Assembly: GCA_003576695.1 (NCBI GenBank)
Contig: QOZQ01000004.1
Location: forward strand, 1-64,000
Reading direction: 5' to 3'
Length of the DNA: 64,000 nucleotides
Source of the DNA: Taklimakanibacter lacteus
GTDB taxonomy: Bacteria > Pseudomonadota > Alphaproteobacteria > Rhizobiales > Aestuariivirgaceae
Below the pieces are notes generated by a model. The model was not told where the DNA came from. It worked only from the letters and a program-made list of their open reading frames with translations, and searched no databases. Both the position numbers and the translations under genes were made by a program. The number at the start of each line of letters is the position of its first letter. Position 1 is the stretch's first letter. Positions 17,524 to 24,038 of this stretch are shown here, piece after piece.

Positions 17524-18249
17524 CTAGCCCCCGCCGCAAAGGGACATTACCAGATGGACAAGCTCAGCCTGGCGATGGCAATGCGTCTTCGCCAGAATGC
17601 GCTTCATGCGCTGGCGCGCCGTTGAAAGGGTGATGTCCTGGATATCGGCGATCCGGTCCAGGCAGAGGCCGCGGGACAGGCATTCGAGCATCCTGGATTC
17701 CGCGCCGGTCAGGCCGCAGGCGTCGGCAAAGGCGGCGAGCAGGAGGGTGTCCGGTGAAGCGCCGTGCCGGGCAATCTCGACAAGCATCATCTGCGATCCG
17801 GCGTCGCCGTCATCCAGGTTCCGCTGGAGAGCGTCGCGGAAGAAACCCTGCGTGTTGCGAATAGTGACCGCGATCCAGCTGTCCTCGAGGGTGCTCCGCC
17901 CGATGGCGACCGCCGTCTCGGCGCCGGTCGCGCTTGCCTCGCCAAGTTTTGCATAGAAGAGGCGGTTGAGCTCGGGCGGGGTGAACAACAGCCGTCCGCC
18001 AATCAATTGCGCGGGTTCGCGGCGCGCGAACATCTCCAGGCAATGAAAATTGGCGTAAGCCACATGCCCGCTTGGACCTTCCACCACAAGCGCAATCGAC
18101 CGCCAGTCCGGACAGATGAGGGCCAGCACGTCCTTGCTCATGGGGTCAAGTCCATCGGAGTTGCGGAGATCGGTGATTGTCGCAGGGCCAGCGAAGCGCC
18201 GATGCAGCCAGGTGGCTCTCTTCGATGCGGTTGCCGCCAGGCCGATCAT
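17524..18249 (-). CDS. LuxR/GerE-type transcriptional regulator
   Basis: A 241-residue protein. The C-terminal part (LTGAESRMLECLSRGLCLDRIADIQDITLSTARQRMKRILAKT) is a LuxR-type helix-turn-helix in which the usual Ser-Thr-Val-Lys recognition segment is varied (LSTARQRMKRI). The N-terminal part looks PAS-like (GHVAYANFHCLEMF, ELNRLFYAKL). No receiver domain is present. It diverges from the SARP-type regulator across about 245 bases, so it may control that operon, the secreted protein gene, or itself. An internal ATG (MSKDVLAL, at 18141) is an alternative start. Confidence 0.8.
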   Translation of the reverse strand: MIGLAATASKRATWLHRRFAGPATITDLRNSDGLDPMSKDVLALICPDWRSIALVVEGPSGHVAYANFHCLEMFARREPAQLIGGRLLFTPPELNRLFYAKLGEASATGAETAVAIGRSTLEDSWIAVTIRNTQGFFRDALQRNLDDGDAGSQMMLVEIARHGASPDTLLLAAFADACGLTGAESRMLECLSRGLCLDRIADIQDITLSTARQRMKRILAKTHCHRQAELVHLVMSLCGGG

Positions 18250-18494
18250 CGCTGCCTCTCCCCATGTTGTCGGGGCCCAGTATCGAAATCACCCGTGACG
18301 CCGGCGTGATATGAGGCTGGGCCCCCCAACTGGTAGTCGCGGCACGGCGGGAAGTGGCGGATCGTCCGGGGATGCTCGGACAGCTGGCTCCCGCAGATGT
18401 GGCATTCGCGAAACCGCTCAATTCTGACCTTGCGTCATGTTGGGTTTTAAGCCAATGTCCGAGTGACAATCCCGAGCACTGGGCGCCAAGCCGG

Positions 18495-20429
18495 ATGGTT
18501 GCGGAGAATGAGATTGCCTTCCGCGTTCTAGGCAGCCCGCAGGTTTCCAACCTGCCGGGCGACATTGTCTTTCCGACCAAGGGGTTTCAATTGATCGCCC
18601 TTCTCGCCCTGGCGCCGTCGGGGCGGTTGACCCGCAAGGAGGCCGCCTCTCTGCTGTGGGACAGCGAGAGCGATGCCGCCGCTCTTACCAACCTGCGCCA
18701 GCTTCTTGCAAGAATGCGGAAGAGCCTGCCGGACGCGGATGACCTGCTGAGCGCGGATGCGCAGACCATCGCCATCGGCAGGCTCAGGCCGGCCATAGAT
18801 CTCTGCCGTTTCGAGATGGAAACCCGGTCCGAGCATTTGCCATCGGCGATGACGGTGTTCGATTTCTTCCGCGGCGACCTGCTCGAGGGGATCGACGATG
18901 CGACGGATGCGTTCTCGCACTGGCTTACGCGCGAACGCGCCGCCCTGCGGGAGCGCTTCTTTGCCTTCGCATCGATGACGCTGATCGAGCTGACGCGATA
19001 TGGCCGGGCATCGAAGCGCGATCTGACCCTGATCGCCACGCGGCTCCTGGCGCTGGAGCCCGAGCGCGAGGCCAGCTACCGGGCGATCATAGAAGCCTAT
19101 GGCCGCAACGGCATGCATGAGGATGCCGCACAAACCTATCAGTCTCTCGCGCAGATGCTGGAACGCGAGCACGGTGCGCACCCGTCGCCGGAGACGGTCG
19201 CCGTCGTGCGGCGGATTTTCGCCGGGCATTCCAGGCCGGAGCCAGACCGCTCACATCCCGCCGTGTCGATGGACCGGCATCCGCGCGTCGCCTTCCTGGC
19301 CCCGACATGGACTTTCGCGAAGGAGCGGGGAGCACTGCTCAGCGTCTTCATCGAGGATGTCGCCAACGAACTGAGCCGCTATCGCAGCTTTGCCGCGCTC
19401 GCTCCGCACAGTTCGCTCCGGGTCGGGCATGATTCGGGCATTCCCCTCGACAACGCCATTCTGCGGGCGGACTACACGATCAGCGGCTTTGTGAAGCCGG
19501 ATCATGGCGGAGAGGTTCTGGCGCTGCGCATGGTCAATTGCGCAACCGGGGAAATCGTCTGGTCGGGAGAGTTCGGGGTCGGACAGGCCGACCTTCTCAA
19601 GTCGTTCAGCGTCCTTTCGCATCGCGTGGCGTCCAGTCTCGGCTCCGCCCTGGAGCGCGACAGGCTGGCTGCGCTGCGCCGGAGCTCCAGCAGCAATGCC
19701 TATCTGCACTATCTGGAGGGGCAGGGCCTGTTGGCCAATTGCGACCTGATCGGGCTGCGCCGGGCCCGCAAATCCTTCCGGCGGGCGCTTGAGATCGACC
19801 AGGGCGCGGCCCCGGCGCGCGCCCGCGTCGCGCAAACGCTCTATCTCGAATGGATCCAGCTGGGGGGGAATGACCCGCAGCTGCTGCTCGAGGCGCGCCA
19901 GCAGGCGGAAGTCGCCATCGGGCTCGACCCCAATGACGCCATCGGCCACTGGGTGGACGGCACGATCGCGCTCTATCAGCAGGATTTCGACCATTGCGAG
20001 AAGAAGCTCGCGGAAGCCGATGCCCTGTGCCCCAATTCGGCGGATCTCCTCATTCAGTATGCCGATGCGCTCGCCCATCTCGGCGATCCCGATGCGGGAT
20101 GGACCAAATTCGAGCGCGCCCTCGATCTCAATCCCAGCCCTCCCGATCTCTATTGGTGGGCCGGCGCCAGCATCGCCTTTCGCCGGCAGGCCTATGACAA
20201 GGCAATAGATCTCTGTGGAAGACTGGCAAGCGACGAATCGGTGCTGGGCATTCTCGCCGCCAGCCATGCCTTCCTTGGTGACCTCAAGACCGCGCGCGGC
20301 TATGGCGCGCGCATCAAGGAAGCCTTTCCGGGAAAGGCCGCCGTCGACAGGAGCAAGGTCGTTCCCGACCGCGATCCAAAATACAGGCAAATTCGACTCG
20401 AGGGTCTCCGATTGGCGGGGGCGATTTAA
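18495..20429 (+). CDS. SARP/BTAD-type regulator with TPR half
   Basis: A large cytoplasmic regulator, 644 residues from this ATG (an in-frame GTG at 18354 would add 47). The N-terminus is an OmpR-like winged helix (FRVLGSPQVSNLPGDIVFPTKGFQL, RKEAASLLWD, NLRQLLARMRK), followed by a bacterial transcriptional activator domain (FFRGDLLEGID, FSHWLTRERAALRERF, REASYRAIIEAYGRNGMHEDAAQTYQ). A middle part resembles the TolB-like/adenylate-cyclase-associated fold (ADYTISGFV, RMVNCATGEIVWSGEF). The C-terminal 200 or so residues are TPR-like repeats (AEVAIGLDPNDAIGHW, KFERALDLNPSPPDLYWWAG). No ATPase domain is present. It ends 14 bases before the 138-residue protein gene, so it is probably the first gene and activator of the YcaO operon. 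Whether it responds to a ligand is not visible. Confidence 0.82.
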   Translation: MVAENEIAFRVLGSPQVSNLPGDIVFPTKGFQLIALLALAPSGRLTRKEAASLLWDSESDAAALTNLRQLLARMRKSLPDADDLLSADAQTIAIGRLRPAIDLCRFEMETRSEHLPSAMTVFDFFRGDLLEGIDDATDAFSHWLTRERAALRERFFAFASMTLIELTRYGRASKRDLTLIATRLLALEPEREASYRAIIEAYGRNGMHEDAAQTYQSLAQMLEREHGAHPSPETVAVVRRIFAGHSRPEPDRSHPAVSMDRHPRVAFLAPTWTFAKERGALLSVFIEDVANELSRYRSFAALAPHSSLRVGHDSGIPLDNAILRADYTISGFVKPDHGGEVLALRMVNCATGEIVWSGEFGVGQADLLKSFSVLSHRVASSLGSALERDRLAALRRSSSSNAYLHYLEGQGLLANCDLIGLRRARKSFRRALEIDQGAAPARARVAQTLYLEWIQLGGNDPQLLLEARQQAEVAIGLDPNDAIGHWVDGTIALYQQDFDHCEKKLAEADALCPNSADLLIQYADALAHLGDPDAGWTKFERALDLNPSPPDLYWWAGASIAFRRQAYDKAIDLCGRLASDESVLGILAASHAFLGDLKTARGYGARIKEAFPGKAAVDRSKVVPDRDPKYRQIRLEGLRLAGAI

Positions 20430-20443
20430 GCAGGAGAAGGGAA

Positions 20444-20860
20444 ATGGCGAAGACGAAGATCTATGTCGTGGGGGACAAGGAATCGGGGATACTGTTCGTG
20501 ACAATCGAGCCGCTGCGGGTAGCGGTCGTGTCCTTGGATGAGGTCAATGATTACGCGGCGAAGCACAAGAAGACAGCTGATGCCGTTTTCGGAGAAGTCG
20601 CCGCGGCGGCGCAAAAGATGATCATTCGAACCGACACGGGCAACATGCCGGCCAATGTGCAAGAAGTCTTCGACGCGTTCGGTGGATTGATAAGCAGGGG
20701 ATCGGTCATCTCCGATGCGGAATTCTGCTTCATAGCCGATGTAGACTCGCACGAATGGGGCACATACAGAGATAATTTCATACCGCTCGAACCCATCGTC
20801 ACGGCGCTGATATCGGCCGACGGCGGCGAGGCCAAGGAAGGCAAGCTGAAGGGGCCGTGA
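20444..20860 (+). CDS. 138-aa protein of unknown family; candidate substrate or partner of YcaO/TfuA
   Basis: I do not recognise this family. It starts MAKTKIYVVGDKESG after a strong RBS (GGAGAAGGG), has a mixed alpha/beta N-terminal half, a single Cys (AEFCFIADVDSHEWGTYRDNF) and a charged tail (GGEAKEGKLKGP). There is no signal peptide, no Nif11 or nitrile-hydratase-like leader, and no Ser/Thr/Cys-rich core. It sits directly upstream of YcaO, nine bases away, which is where RiPP precursors or leader-binding partners usually sit. It could be the modified protein, a chaperone or recognition protein, or something unrelated. It contains arginines (IIRTD, LISRGS, TYRDN) that a guanidine-modifying enzyme could act on. 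Confidence 0.7.
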   Translation: MAKTKIYVVGDKESGILFVTIEPLRVAVVSLDEVNDYAAKHKKTADAVFGEVAAAAQKMIIRTDTGNMPANVQEVFDAFGGLISRGSVISDAEFCFIADVDSHEWGTYRDNFIPLEPIVTALISADGGEAKEGKLKGP

Positions 20861-20869
20861 GCACGGTAA

Positions 20870-22153
20870 ATGGCTACGGATGCAGCCCATGCGGTCGTGC
20901 TTGCTGAAGCGCGTGCGCTGAGGACATCGCTTGCCTGCGACGATCCGGCGAGTGGCAGCGGTCACCACACCGCGCGCTCGCCGACGGATCTCGTAGCTGA
21001 GCTTGAACCTCATCTTAGCTCATTCGGCGTCACGCGAGTCGGGGATATAACGGGACTCGACGTCATCGGCATTCCGGTTTTCTTCGCGTGCCGTCCCAAT
21101 TCCTGGTCGCTCTCGGTGTGTCAAGGCAAGTCCATGCACGCAGATCAGGCACGGCTTGGCGCAATCATGGAATGCATGGAGCAGGCCCTGGCGGAACGAA
21201 GCGTTGACATGGTCGTCCGCCGAGCGAGCCGAGAGGACATGAGCCGCCAGGGGCTGCGATGTCTCGGTGAAAGCGCCATGCTCCGCTCGACACCCAAAGG
21301 GTTCGACAAGTCACGCGACTATTACTGGATGCAAGGCATCTCGCTCAAGGATGGTTGCGACGTCTATGCGCCTTATGAGCTTGTCGGCCTTGATCTGCGG
21401 ATCGACAGCACATGGGACCACGCGGCATTCAGGATGTCCTCCGTCGGCCTGGCGGCAGGAGCCTCGCTGTGCGACGCGGTGCTGCACGCCACGCTCGAAC
21501 TGGTCGAGCACGACGCAACTGCGCTGATCGATCTATTCGGCTTGGCCGCCGGCATCGGACGGCCCCTCGTTCATCGCCATGGGTCGTACGACGAACTCGA
21601 TCGTGCGGTGGCGATGGTCGAGAAGGCCGGACTGACCTGCTCATTCGCGGAGATTGCGGGCAAGGTCGGCATGCCGACCATTGCCGCCTTCATCGCCCCC
21701 GGGAATCACGAAAGCACAGGGCGCATCTTTGCGGGCTTTGCCTGCCGCTGCAGCCCGGAGGAATCGGCGCTCGCGGCCCTGCTCGAAGCGGCTCAGTCGC
21801 GGGTCACGCAAATCTCCGGCGCGCGCGACGATCTCTCGCCGGATGATTATGCCCGCAAAAGCCAACGCCTGAAATTCCGGCCGGGCAATGAAGCCTTCCT
21901 AGACAGCCTCGCGACATCTTGCGTGATCGACAAGACAGCCTCGCCCCTGTGGAAGCTCCGTCATGTGGTCGGCAAGATATTTCAGGCGGGTGTCGAGGAC
22001 ATATTCGTCTTTCCTCTCGGTGGAGGGGGAGCGGGAGTACGTGCTGCTCGCGTGCTGATGCCCAGCATGCAAGCCGCTGCCGGCAAGGGGGTCGTCCAAG
22101 TCGGAGTTCACCTGTTGACATCGTTGCTGCGGAATGCCGAGGAGCGCGTATGA
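20870..22153 (+). CDS. YcaO-family ATP-dependent peptide backbone modification enzyme
   Basis: A 427-residue YcaO protein. YcaO enzymes phosphorylate a peptide-bond oxygen with ATP, allowing azoline, thioamide or amidine formation. ATP-site motifs are visible: CQGKS at residues 84-88, AIMECMEQALAER with E101 and E104, ATLELVEHD with E210 and E213, and ALLEAAQSRVTQ with E306 and Q309. The C-terminus lacks the proline-rich PxPxP end of azoline-forming cyclodehydratases, and there is no E1-like partner gene. Instead it overlaps a TfuA gene by four bases. TfuA-coupled YcaOs are known in trifolitoxin biosynthesis and in archaeal thioamide formation on methyl-coenzyme M reductase, so thioamidation is a reasonable but unproven guess. 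Confidence 0.9.
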   Translation: MATDAAHAVVLAEARALRTSLACDDPASGSGHHTARSPTDLVAELEPHLSSFGVTRVGDITGLDVIGIPVFFACRPNSWSLSVCQGKSMHADQARLGAIMECMEQALAERSVDMVVRRASREDMSRQGLRCLGESAMLRSTPKGFDKSRDYYWMQGISLKDGCDVYAPYELVGLDLRIDSTWDHAAFRMSSVGLAAGASLCDAVLHATLELVEHDATALIDLFGLAAGIGRPLVHRHGSYDELDRAVAMVEKAGLTCSFAEIAGKVGMPTIAAFIAPGNHESTGRIFAGFACRCSPEESALAALLEAAQSRVTQISGARDDLSPDDYARKSQRLKFRPGNEAFLDSLATSCVIDKTASPLWKLRHVVGKIFQAGVEDIFVFPLGGGGAGVRAARVLMPSMQAAAGKGVVQVGVHLLTSLLRNAEERV

Positions 22154-22869
22154 CAGCGGTCATATTCGCCGGGCCCAGTATCCATGGGATTGACATGGGC
22201 AGATTTCCCACCCTGGAACTACGACCGCCTGCCGCTTGTGGCGACGTGCTACGGGCAATGCGCCAGGGCATCGCGCGCATCGGGCTGATTGACGGTCTTT
22301 TTGAGTCCGCTCCAGCCGTCTGGCACAAAGAGATATTGAGCGCTCTTGCCGCCGGCGCCGCCATATGGGGTGCAGCAAGCATGGGAGCGCTCCGGGCGGC
22401 CGAGTTGCATTGCTTCGGAATGACAGGGATTGGAAAGATCTTCGAGCAATATGTTTCGGGCGAAAGATATGCCGATGCGGATGTCGCGGTTGTGCATGCG
22501 CCGGCCGAGCTTGGTCATCTGCCGCTGACGGTGGCGCTGGTGGATGTCGAGGCAAGCCTTGCTCGGTTGTCGGACCGCGGCGTTCTCGATCGGCGAGACA
22601 TCGCCGCGCTCGCGGCGGCGGCATGCCGGCTACACTTCAAGGATCGAACCTGGTCGAGAGTCGTCCACGAGGCGGAGCGCAATGCCGGCGATACCGACAG
22701 GCTGCTTGCGCGCGTTTCGCAACATGCTTTCAGCCAGAAGACTCTCGATGCCGAGGCTCTTCTCGCGGAATTGGCGAAACCAGCCACGGAGACCGGATCG
22801 GCAGATCGCGCGGAAAAATTCAGGTTGAACAGGACGTACTTTCTCAACGCGCTGGAACGACGGACATGA
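22150..22869 (+). CDS. TfuA-like partner of YcaO
   Basis: A 239-residue protein with the TfuA core near its N-terminus: VIFAGPSI (residues 4-11), RPPAACGDVLRAM (25-37), IGLIDGLFESAPAVWHKEIL (44-63) and GAASMGALRAAEL (74-86). These are the best-conserved stretches of the family. TfuA is thought to help YcaO, possibly by delivering or activating sulfide for thioamide formation. The ATG sits in an ATGA overlap with the YcaO stop codon, and the next gene starts in another ATGA overlap, so the three proteins are coupled in translation. The C-terminal half is helical and less conserved. Confidence 0.92.
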   Translation: MTAVIFAGPSIHGIDMGRFPTLELRPPAACGDVLRAMRQGIARIGLIDGLFESAPAVWHKEILSALAAGAAIWGAASMGALRAAELHCFGMTGIGKIFEQYVSGERYADADVAVVHAPAELGHLPLTVALVDVEASLARLSDRGVLDRRDIAALAAAACRLHFKDRTWSRVVHEAERNAGDTDRLLARVSQHAFSQKTLDAEALLAELAKPATETGSADRAEKFRLNRTYFLNALERRT

Positions 22870-24038
22870 CATCAAACGCCAGCTACGTGCTGTTCAGCGA
22901 CCTGGGTGGGGCCGTGAAGCGGATCGCCATGCAATTCGCGCCATTTCTCTTTCAGGATGCCGACCGACGCGCAGTATATGCAAGCCTGCTGGGTGAATTC
23001 GGTTGCACGACGCATGTCTCCGTCCTGATCGATGCGACGCAAGCCGACCTGTTCGATGACTGGGTATCGGGTCTTGCGCTCAAGTGCACCGTCGTGCCCG
23101 TCCCCGTGCCGGGCGATGAATTGGGAAAGATCCGTGTGTGGATACGTGATAGTTTCCTATGCGCAATGGAAGGCAGTACGCGCAGATATCTTAGACCGAG
23201 TTCGAGCAAGGATGAAGACGGGAGCCAGGCCCAATGGCTGGGGCAATTCGATGGAACGACGGTAGAGCCCGTGAATGTCCATCTCGACGGCGGTGATTGC
23301 CTGGTCGGCCTTGGCATCTGGTTCGTAGGTGCCCAGGCCGTATGGCATACTGCGGATATGGAAGGGCAAACCTGCACCTATCCCGAGGCACTGGCGCGGA
23401 TCGGCGCGATCCAAGGCCAGCTTCCGTTCGTTGTCGGATACAAGGTTGCAAATATCCGGAACAAGTTTCAGTGGCTGCTGTCCGAGCTGAGATACAAGGC
23501 AAGGGAGGCCGCTGCCGAGCGCAGTGAGGTGCGACCGTTGAGCGGTCTCTTTCCCGGCCTCGTGATCACCCTGACCATCCTTCGCCAAGTCCTGTTCTTC
23601 CTGATGAATCAGGACGAGCTGACGCAGACCTGGGCGCATGTCGACCTGATTTTCTGTCCGACCGGCCGGAAGAAGGGCGACAAGCACACTATCCTCGTCG
23701 CCCAGGCACAAGATGGCAACGAGGCAGACGGACAGAACGATCGGCTCAATGCGGTGGCCGACCATTTGACCTCGCAGGGATTTGACGTCCAGCGCAACCC
23801 CACTTTCTTCGTGGTCTCCGACGAGTACATCCTGGGGTACAACAATGTCATCATGCAGACTAACCCGGATATCGTCTGGTTGCCGCAATTCGGTGGGAAG
23901 TATGCGGTCGAGGATGAAAGGAATGTAGAAATTTGGGAGGGCCTTGGTTACGAGGTCAGAAAAATCCCCGGATGCCTAGCTTTCGCCAAGAGCCAGGGTG
24001 CGATACGCTGCCTGACCAATGTCGTGGAAAGATACTGA
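22866..24038 (+). CDS. Guanidine-modifying enzyme fold (agmatine/peptidylarginine deiminase-like)
   Basis: A 390-residue protein from the ATG at 22866, inside the TfuA stop codon overlap. Motifs of the deiminase/amidinotransferase superfamily are all visible: RVWIRDSF (W92, R94, D95), HLDGGDCL (139-146), HVDLIF with H258 and D260 as the HxD pair, LGYNNVIMQTN followed by WLPQFGG, and GAIRCLTN near the C-terminus with the nucleophile C382. The set agrees with a working enzyme that attacks a guanidine carbon through a cysteine. It could make citrulline, ornithine or transfer an amidino group. A small-molecule agmatine deiminase would be longer in the conserved parts and rarely sits in such an operon. 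Its tight coupling to YcaO-TfuA suggests a peptide substrate. Confidence 0.8.
   Translation: MTSNASYVLFSDLGGAVKRIAMQFAPFLFQDADRRAVYASLLGEFGCTTHVSVLIDATQADLFDDWVSGLALKCTVVPVPVPGDELGKIRVWIRDSFLCAMEGSTRRYLRPSSSKDEDGSQAQWLGQFDGTTVEPVNVHLDGGDCLVGLGIWFVGAQAVWHTADMEGQTCTYPEALARIGAIQGQLPFVVGYKVANIRNKFQWLLSELRYKAREAAAERSEVRPLSGLFPGLVITLTILRQVLFFLMNQDELTQTWAHVDLIFCPTGRKKGDKHTILVAQAQDGNEADGQNDRLNAVADHLTSQGFDVQRNPTFFVVSDEYILGYNNVIMQTNPDIVWLPQFGGKYAVEDERNVEIWEGLGYEVRKIPGCLAFAKSQGAIRCLTNVVERY

Follow-up and report, generated by a model that had tools for sequence, protein, structure and literature searches.

The operon and its spread

The window analysed here, a 64,000-nucleotide stretch of Taklimakanibacter lacteus DNA (contig QOZQ01000004.1, positions 1 to 64,000), contains a compact five-gene operon with a YcaO-TfuA pair at its centre, which may direct the making of a ribosomally synthesized and post-translationally modified peptide (RiPP) that carries both a thioamide and a citrulline. 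The positions of the open reading frames confirm the preliminary description of five genes on the + strand separated by 14, 9, -4 and -4 bases. The first (18495..20429, +) encodes a SARP/BTAD-TPR regulator of 644 residues (Pfam BTAD, 5.1e-15, and TPR) when read from ATG 18495, the start adopted in that description, while the open frame reaches back to a GTG at 18354. It is followed by the gene for a 138-residue protein, here P138 (20444..20860, +), proposed to be a RiPP precursor on account of its homologues in the same slot and of relatives with tandem core repeats. Then come a YcaO of 427 residues (20870..22153, +; PF02624, 2.4e-47) and a TfuA of 239 residues (22150..22869, +; PF07812, 3.3e-41), their genes adjacent with a 4-bp overlap, and lastly a 390-residue deiminase-like protein, here GME for guanidine-modifying enzyme (22866..24038, +), recognized by AlphaFold2 (AF2) modelling and Foldseek. 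Neither P138 nor GME has a Pfam match.

A scan of genome contigs with a YcaO alignment, in which gene starts were chosen by script, returned 56 loci from hosts that include Agrobacterium, Rhizobium, Ciceribacter, Roseibium and Stappia (L and G numbers denote loci and genomes). All five genes are found in the same order on one strand in 18 of these loci (L018-L022, L024, L026-L037), and two further genomes, G657 and G733, carry the full operon. The occurrence of the set exceeds chance, and the possibility raised earlier, that the fifth gene stands beside YcaO by accident in this one genome, fails in view of its recurrence in 18/56 loci. Both the gene order and the 138-residue gene are conserved, which supports the original view of the operon as one functional unit. 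A regulator homologue lies upstream in 18/18 full operons and in 24 of the 38 remaining loci; the window's regulator is 54-57% identical to its G657 and G733 homologues.

The single-sequence contig scan with the GME protein returned no relatives. A search of 385 genomes of the window's class with an enzyme profile gave six matches, of which the four strong ones (the window, G433, G657 and G733) all lie directly downstream of YcaO-TfuA; no operon gene was found beside the two weak partial matches. A single-sequence GME search across 397 genomes of the order likewise gave six, including the window, G365 (Roseibium, full operon), G382 (Pleomorphomonas, with a convergent GME) and G026 (at a contig end), with no operon genes found near the other two. 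Homologues of P138 were detected in 4/385 and 6/397 genomes of the same sets, every one beside SARP and YcaO; their places in G433, G365, G150, G198 and G309 are loci of the 56-locus scan. The operon appears patchy, since the four other genomes of the window's genus that were searched, one of them 87% complete, gave no enzyme match. It is also present on plasmid records of Neorhizobium (L109) and R. daejeonense (L110), the regulator of the latter being cut by the start of the record.

The small-protein slot and its variable cores

A P138 homologue occupies the same slot in the 18 full operons and in Labrys and Mesorhizobium, of which G121, G150 and G198 (Labrys and its genus) and G309 (Mesorhizobium) show no deiminase match at E<=0.1. 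In deiminase-less relatives, the slot between SARP and YcaO holds a small protein that starts like P138 and continues into a core, which is often repeated. The Phyllobacterium-type loci all (17/17) have a slot protein with 1-8 units of the form R-x-x-x-x-[DE]-[RK], 12 having at least three and five a single one. These units are imperfect; in L052, five of the eight are exactly GRSDPSERAYSFD. Two Afifellaceae slot proteins carry 8 and 5 units of the RSDAASHxYxP type, and two from Labrys carry 10 and 9 QAG[VI] units inside the P138 frame. Unit copy number varies among near relatives. As read from these sequences, the anatomy is that of a RiPP precursor, in which the leader stays constant while the core varies and is often repeated. 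P138 itself is most likely a precursor, because its same-slot relatives combine a similar N-terminal segment with tandem core repeats of their own, and we hold this identification with good though incomplete confidence. The proposed leader, residues 3-36 (20450..20551, +), is delimited by a profile-profile match to the Phyllobacterium-type N-termini and has three predicted strands, placed at residues 3-11, 15-21 and 24-30 in a low-confidence AF2 model.

The Labrys-type copies show an arrangement of their own. In L023, L025 and L113 (Labrys and its genus) a third SARP gene precedes a tandem pair of SARP-P138-YcaO units, of which, in L023, one has an FMN_bind_2 gene (the first) and the other TfuA (the second). 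A further copy, on chromosome 2 of Labrys sp. KNU-23 (L073), has no TfuA match. The cores in these four loci differ from copy to copy.

A tryptophan-arginine motif that tracks the enzyme

The alignment of P138 homologues from GME-bearing loci has 21 rows, 20 of them distinct, namely the window, the 18 loci, G657 and G733. A W-x-x-x-R motif stands at one place in 21/21 of these as against 0/6 GME-less homologues. In the window it reads W105-G-T-Y-R109 (20756..20770, +) and, given this conservation, is the proposed core motif, with R109 as the proposed target of the deiminase. Of the twelve columns invariant among the 21 rows, only in that of W105 do all six GME-less proteins lack the residue, and R109 is the sole invariant arginine. 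Among loci checked afterwards, that of Neorhizobium (L109) has WDFNR, as does L110, which has the same protein as the L034 row, while neither of the two P138 homologues in the GME-less genome G121 has WxxxR, one of them bearing a glutamine-rich repetitive core of its own. The earlier proposal of a backbone change combined with a converted arginine thereby gains what it lacked, a concrete candidate substrate, P138 with its invariant WxxxR arginine.

In a YcaO tree of 61 rows, Labrys is nested in the deiminase clade and Mesorhizobium falls just outside it. Since Labrys has neither, enzyme and motif seem, from this tree, to have been lost together there. None (0%) of 200 bootstrap trees shows a single change of the deiminase label.

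The fifth gene product and the deiminase fold

Searches of Pfam, NCBIfam and PDB with the GME sequence gave nothing meaningful. PF04371 (PAD_porph/agmatine deiminase) is not among the matches of any of the 17 GME members at E<=1 and has no match in the window's genome; GME was not assigned to that family, the gathering cut-off of which is not reached. An AF2 model built from the GME alignment (17 rows, one a fragment) has a predicted local distance difference test score (pLDDT) of 83.4 and a predicted template modelling score of 0.83. When compared with PDB by Foldseek, the model gave 23 matches at E<=1e-3, all 23 of them agmatine, peptidylarginine or arginine deiminases, the next match lying at E 0.069. 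The best is an agmatine deiminase (6b10, 1.6e-13), followed closely by the peptidylarginine deiminase PPAD (6i0x, 3.1e-13); human PAD4 (5n0y, 2.0e-7), human PAD1 and arginine deiminase (1rxx, 4.6e-4) are also matched.

The Asp, His-x-Asp and Cys catalytic residues are all present, the tetrad D95/H258/D260/C382 being kept. The W and D of W92-I-R-D95 (23139..23150, +) and the H and D of H258-V-D260 (23637..23645, +) are conserved in 16/16 rows reaching the respective motif. C382 (24009..24011, +), the proposed nucleophile, is found in 17/17 rows and aligns with the agmatine-deiminase cysteine. Position 94 is Q in 15/16 rows (WxQD) and R in the window alone (WxRD). An hhalign comparison of GME with four agmatine deiminases from related genomes is collinear, with the W-x-x-D, G-G, H-x-D and Cys motifs paired. 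The earlier assignment of this gene to the deiminase/amidinotransferase fold was therefore correct, as the Foldseek matches are all deiminases and the catalytic motifs are kept. The superfamily also includes dihydrolases and amidinotransferases; judged by the model, deiminase is the likeliest sub-type of GME. Of the three products originally envisaged, citrulline, ornithine and a transferred amidine, the last becomes the least likely, because the fold search at E<=1e-3 retrieves deiminases only.

A GME relative in G026 (L012, G026:C41:1-7126), truncated where the contig ends, adjoins a gene that matches the NHLP bacteriocin HlyD model TIGR03794 above its cut-off. The same stretch encodes a cyclic-nucleotide-binding protein and an NHLP-type ABC protein, the latter narrowly missing its cut-off. 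The HlyD neighbourhood is counted here in support of the RiPP reading, and the GME family may serve other RiPP systems too. A GME match in a Paenibacillus plasmid has no YcaO-annotated gene within 9 kb.

The YcaO-TfuA pair

The best NCBIfam models for both proteins are those of the McrA-glycine thioamidation pair, TIGR03266 for YcaO (1.1e-41, 143 of 365 bits) and NF033432 for TfuA (3.5e-51, 173.6 of 235.2 bits). Each score is below its cut-off, and membership of that pair was rejected. A profile of eight YcaO relatives matches the MJ1094 structure (6pe3, 5e-45), and TfuA matches a solved TfuA structure (6xp8, 4e-28). From these sequence relationships, the window's YcaO is probably thioamidating. 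Azoline formation was set aside, the five genes encoding no C or B protein and TfuA being present.

The window's genome has two further YcaO genes. One (L016:9348-10559) belongs to a second YcaO-TfuA pair (G000:C18 392000-411900, L016) directly behind a 1019-residue guanylate-cyclase/AAA_16/TPR protein, a layout of regulator plus YcaO-TfuA in which the regulator is of another type than SARP. The other (G000:C1 411911-412867; L001, L017) has no TfuA among the surrounding tblastn matches and lies beside a SARP-like open frame on the opposite strand.

A proposed route to a thioamide-citrulline pair

We propose that the SARP regulator would control an operon in which P138 has a leader at its N-terminus, then a core around W105-x-x-x-R109 and, at the C-terminus, a follower. 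Within the core, a backbone amide would be activated by YcaO with ATP, and TfuA would help insert sulfur there to form a thioamide. By analogy with the thiovarsolins and the Streptomyces thermodiastaticus std peptide, both considered below, the thioamide would most plausibly be placed at residue 108, just before the arginine, an assignment that is tentative and on balance doubtful. GME would hydrolyse the guanidine of R109 by way of Cys382, together with D95, H258 and D260, to give peptidyl citrulline; deimination at this residue we hold to be barely favoured. Leader removal and export would complete the route, the five-gene operon containing neither a protease nor an exporter gene. We infer that P138 is modified, as well as each reaction, the order of the reactions and their site. 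As a whole, the account of the locus as a RiPP operon, with P138 as precursor, thioamidation by YcaO-TfuA and conversion of R109 to peptidyl citrulline by GME, is modestly favoured.

In a broader formulation, the operon would represent an alphaproteobacterial RiPP class in which a divergent, cluster-encoded peptidylarginine deiminase and YcaO-TfuA act on neighbouring positions of WxxxR to yield a thioamide-citrulline pair, while a common frame of regulator, precursor, YcaO and TfuA would have exchanged repeat-rich cores and a single-core 138-residue precursor as the deiminase came and went. Taken jointly, these two propositions fall somewhat short of an even chance in our estimation. The open-licence literature searched yielded no description of such a class, nor any of YcaO and agmatine deiminase together.

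Comparison with known thioamidated and citrullinated peptides

The thiovarsolins are thioamidated peptides in which the arginine side chain is reportedly dehydrogenated by VarO. The preliminary description knew of no system with the present gene set; a partial precedent is the thiovarsolin (var) cluster of Streptomyces varsoviensis, where genes for an amidinotransferase and a repeat-bearing precursor stand with those for YcaO and TfuA (PMC6511847). The two loci share the YcaO and TfuA genes, a gene for a guanidine enzyme, and a thioamide directly before an arginine (between Pro and Arg in the thiovarsolins, proposed here), along with the idea of a range of precursors, from those with no repeat to those with five imperfect core repeats in the var family (PMC6511847). 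In Streptomyces, varA, varY and varT suffice for a thioamidated peptide, and deletion of the amidinotransferase gene leaves thiovarsolin production unaffected (PMC6511847). The var cluster differs in being actinobacterial, in its short APR cores and in its heme-oxygenase-like, ATP-grasp ligase and MFS genes; its description mentions no SARP-TPR gene in the available text (PMC6511847), whereas the present locus couples SARP-TPR with a deiminase-type fold in Alphaproteobacteria. Membership of the thiovarsolin family was rejected, as the five-gene operon has no APR-type repeat core, heme-oxygenase-like gene or ATP-grasp gene and P138 is free of repeats.

In the std peptide, YcaO-TfuA thioamidates an Asn and the next residue, a Lys, becomes homocitrulline with its ureido side chain (PMC13174530). 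The likeness lies in a thioamide with a ureido residue next to it, proposed here as citrulline; the difference, in the carbamoyltransferase that forms the ureido group on Lys, in the presence of an MNIO and in the lack of an encoded peptidylarginine deiminase (PMC13174530). The citrulassin lasso peptides offer the conversion of Arg to citrulline in a RiPP by a peptidylarginine deiminase, but that enzyme is encoded outside the cluster, the product is a lasso peptide, and YcaO is absent from the main text of the paper as available (PMC12971885). A lasso assignment was rejected, since no lasso cyclase or protease gene was found among the five genes and the two scanned neighbours, the stretch covered in this respect.

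We know of no precursor gene or deiminase in the YcaO systems that act on McrA and uL16. They share the YcaO chemistry, and the McrA pair supplies the closest NCBIfam models for the present proteins, but their targets are large proteins (for uL16, PMC13063428). In a 2021 survey of TfuA, Rhizobium and Agrobacterium are among the dominant cluster families (PMC8120280), for which reason the survey probably covers proteobacterial loci like this one; its main text uses none of the terms deiminase, SARP and Phyllobacterium (PMC8120280).

By these analogies, the operon would be kin to known thioamidated RiPPs, its novel part being the proposed chemistry. The present analysis gives this peptide family a proposed precursor, an arginine as its proposed target and a candidate enzyme; its carriers, from soil, plants and the sea, include such common soil- and plant-associated bacteria as Agrobacterium and Rhizobium. 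Were the proposal true, this would be the third YcaO-TfuA peptide in which an edited basic residue directly follows a thioamide, making such a rule testable, and a different enzyme would bring about a counterpart to the thio-Asn-homocitrulline pair of the std peptide. A cluster-encoded peptide deiminase outside all the sequence models tried would then also be a new handle for genome mining and a possible tool for site-directed citrulline.

Alternative explanations

P138 could instead be a helper that binds a leader or acts as a scaffold, with YcaO-TfuA modifying another cell protein, as E. coli YcaO does uL16 or the methanogen YcaO-TfuA does McrA. This we consider unlikely. Such a role would fit the length of P138, its lack of repeats in GME-bearing loci and its partly folded look in a low-confidence model, as well as the best scores of YcaO and TfuA with the McrA-glycine models and of YcaO with MJ1094, and a protein-directed YcaO has been described (PMC13063428). 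However, the same-slot relatives carry tandem core repeats in varying number, as precursors do, the Labrys homologues hold such repeats inside the P138 frame itself, and the patchy distribution (4/385, 6/397, and four searched genus-mates without the enzyme) is unlike that of a housekeeping target; uL16 was set aside as target on the latter account. A low, though appreciable, probability is given to GME having as its substrate not Arg109 of P138 but agmatine, arginine or some guanidino compound, a small molecule attached to or supporting the peptide, or to its serving in immunity. The best fold match is after all an agmatine deiminase, the R. daejeonense copy is annotated as an "agmatine deiminase family protein", the window's enzyme shares WxRD with the agmatine deiminases in the alignment, and the thiovarsolin-cluster amidinotransferase is dispensable (PMC6511847). 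Against this, WxxxR tracks the enzyme (21/21 versus 0/6, Pleomorphomonas excepted), the peptide-acting PPAD is an equally close fold with human PAD4 and PAD1 also matched, and the other 15/16 GME rows have WxQD. That the arginine of an otherwise identical pathway yields ornithine or passes on its amidine is very improbable: the dihydrolases and amidinotransferases of the superfamily and the loss of the EGG-motif glutamate, kept in 1/16 rows, would allow it, but the 23/23 deiminase fold matches argue otherwise.

Several observations weigh against the proposed account of the operon. The leader match between P138 and the Phyllobacterium proteins is weak, covering 34 columns with hhalign probabilities of 42% and 37% and P values of 2.6e-4, from a comparison that included one out-of-frame row, and 3.6e-4; P138 is without repeats, its AF2 model has a pLDDT of 60, and its best fold match lies at E 1.9, outside the limit of E<=1e-3. 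The hhalign comparison of GME with the agmatine deiminases is likewise weak (probability 5%, P 0.0072), and the glutamate of their EGG motif is, as noted, mostly missing. Arginine occupies the R109 column in 2/6 GME-less homologues, and residue 108, the proposed thioamide site, is Asn in 19/21 rows, Tyr in the window and Cys in L020. In Pleomorphomonas (L064/L014) YcaO-TfuA and a convergent GME fragment accompany a 98-residue small protein without WxxxR. The 21 rows form five groups at 60% identity, so that the independent support is smaller than their count. Few independent events underlie the association, with Labrys, lacking enzyme and motif, inside the clade and Mesorhizobium just outside. 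The branches that nest Labrys have supports of 92/91 and 86/80, below the starred mark of the tool, the starred branches alone are compatible with a single origin of the deiminase label, and long-branch warnings were issued for the YcaO tree, the window included.

Neighbouring regulators and related loci

A divergent LuxR-like regulator gene (17524..18249, -; GerE 0.011, below cut-off) lies upstream and possibly belongs to the locus. Among the 56 loci, a homologue in the divergent upstream position occurs in L018 alone; G657 and G733 have one too, the identities being 33-45%. In L027 and equivalents, the gene after that of the deiminase (L027:13084-13566) encodes an HTH_3 regulator, with a homologue near that place in 15/18 full-operon loci and in L060 according to a rough neighbour clustering, which returned many shadow ORFs and served as a pointer only; such a regulator is also annotated in R. 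daejeonense L110.

The tfuA gene is said to have been first described in connection with trifolitoxin production. For the TfuA of S. meliloti pSymB, the 12.6-kb stretch examined around it yielded no YcaO homologue. TfuA relatives at E<=1e-25 occur in 210 plasmid records, mostly of Rhizobium and Sinorhizobium. One R. leguminosarum locus (L112, NZ_CP022567.1, 2247-6702) has genes for an HTH protein, a SARP-like protein, a 70-residue leader-like protein, YcaO and TfuA, without a deiminase.

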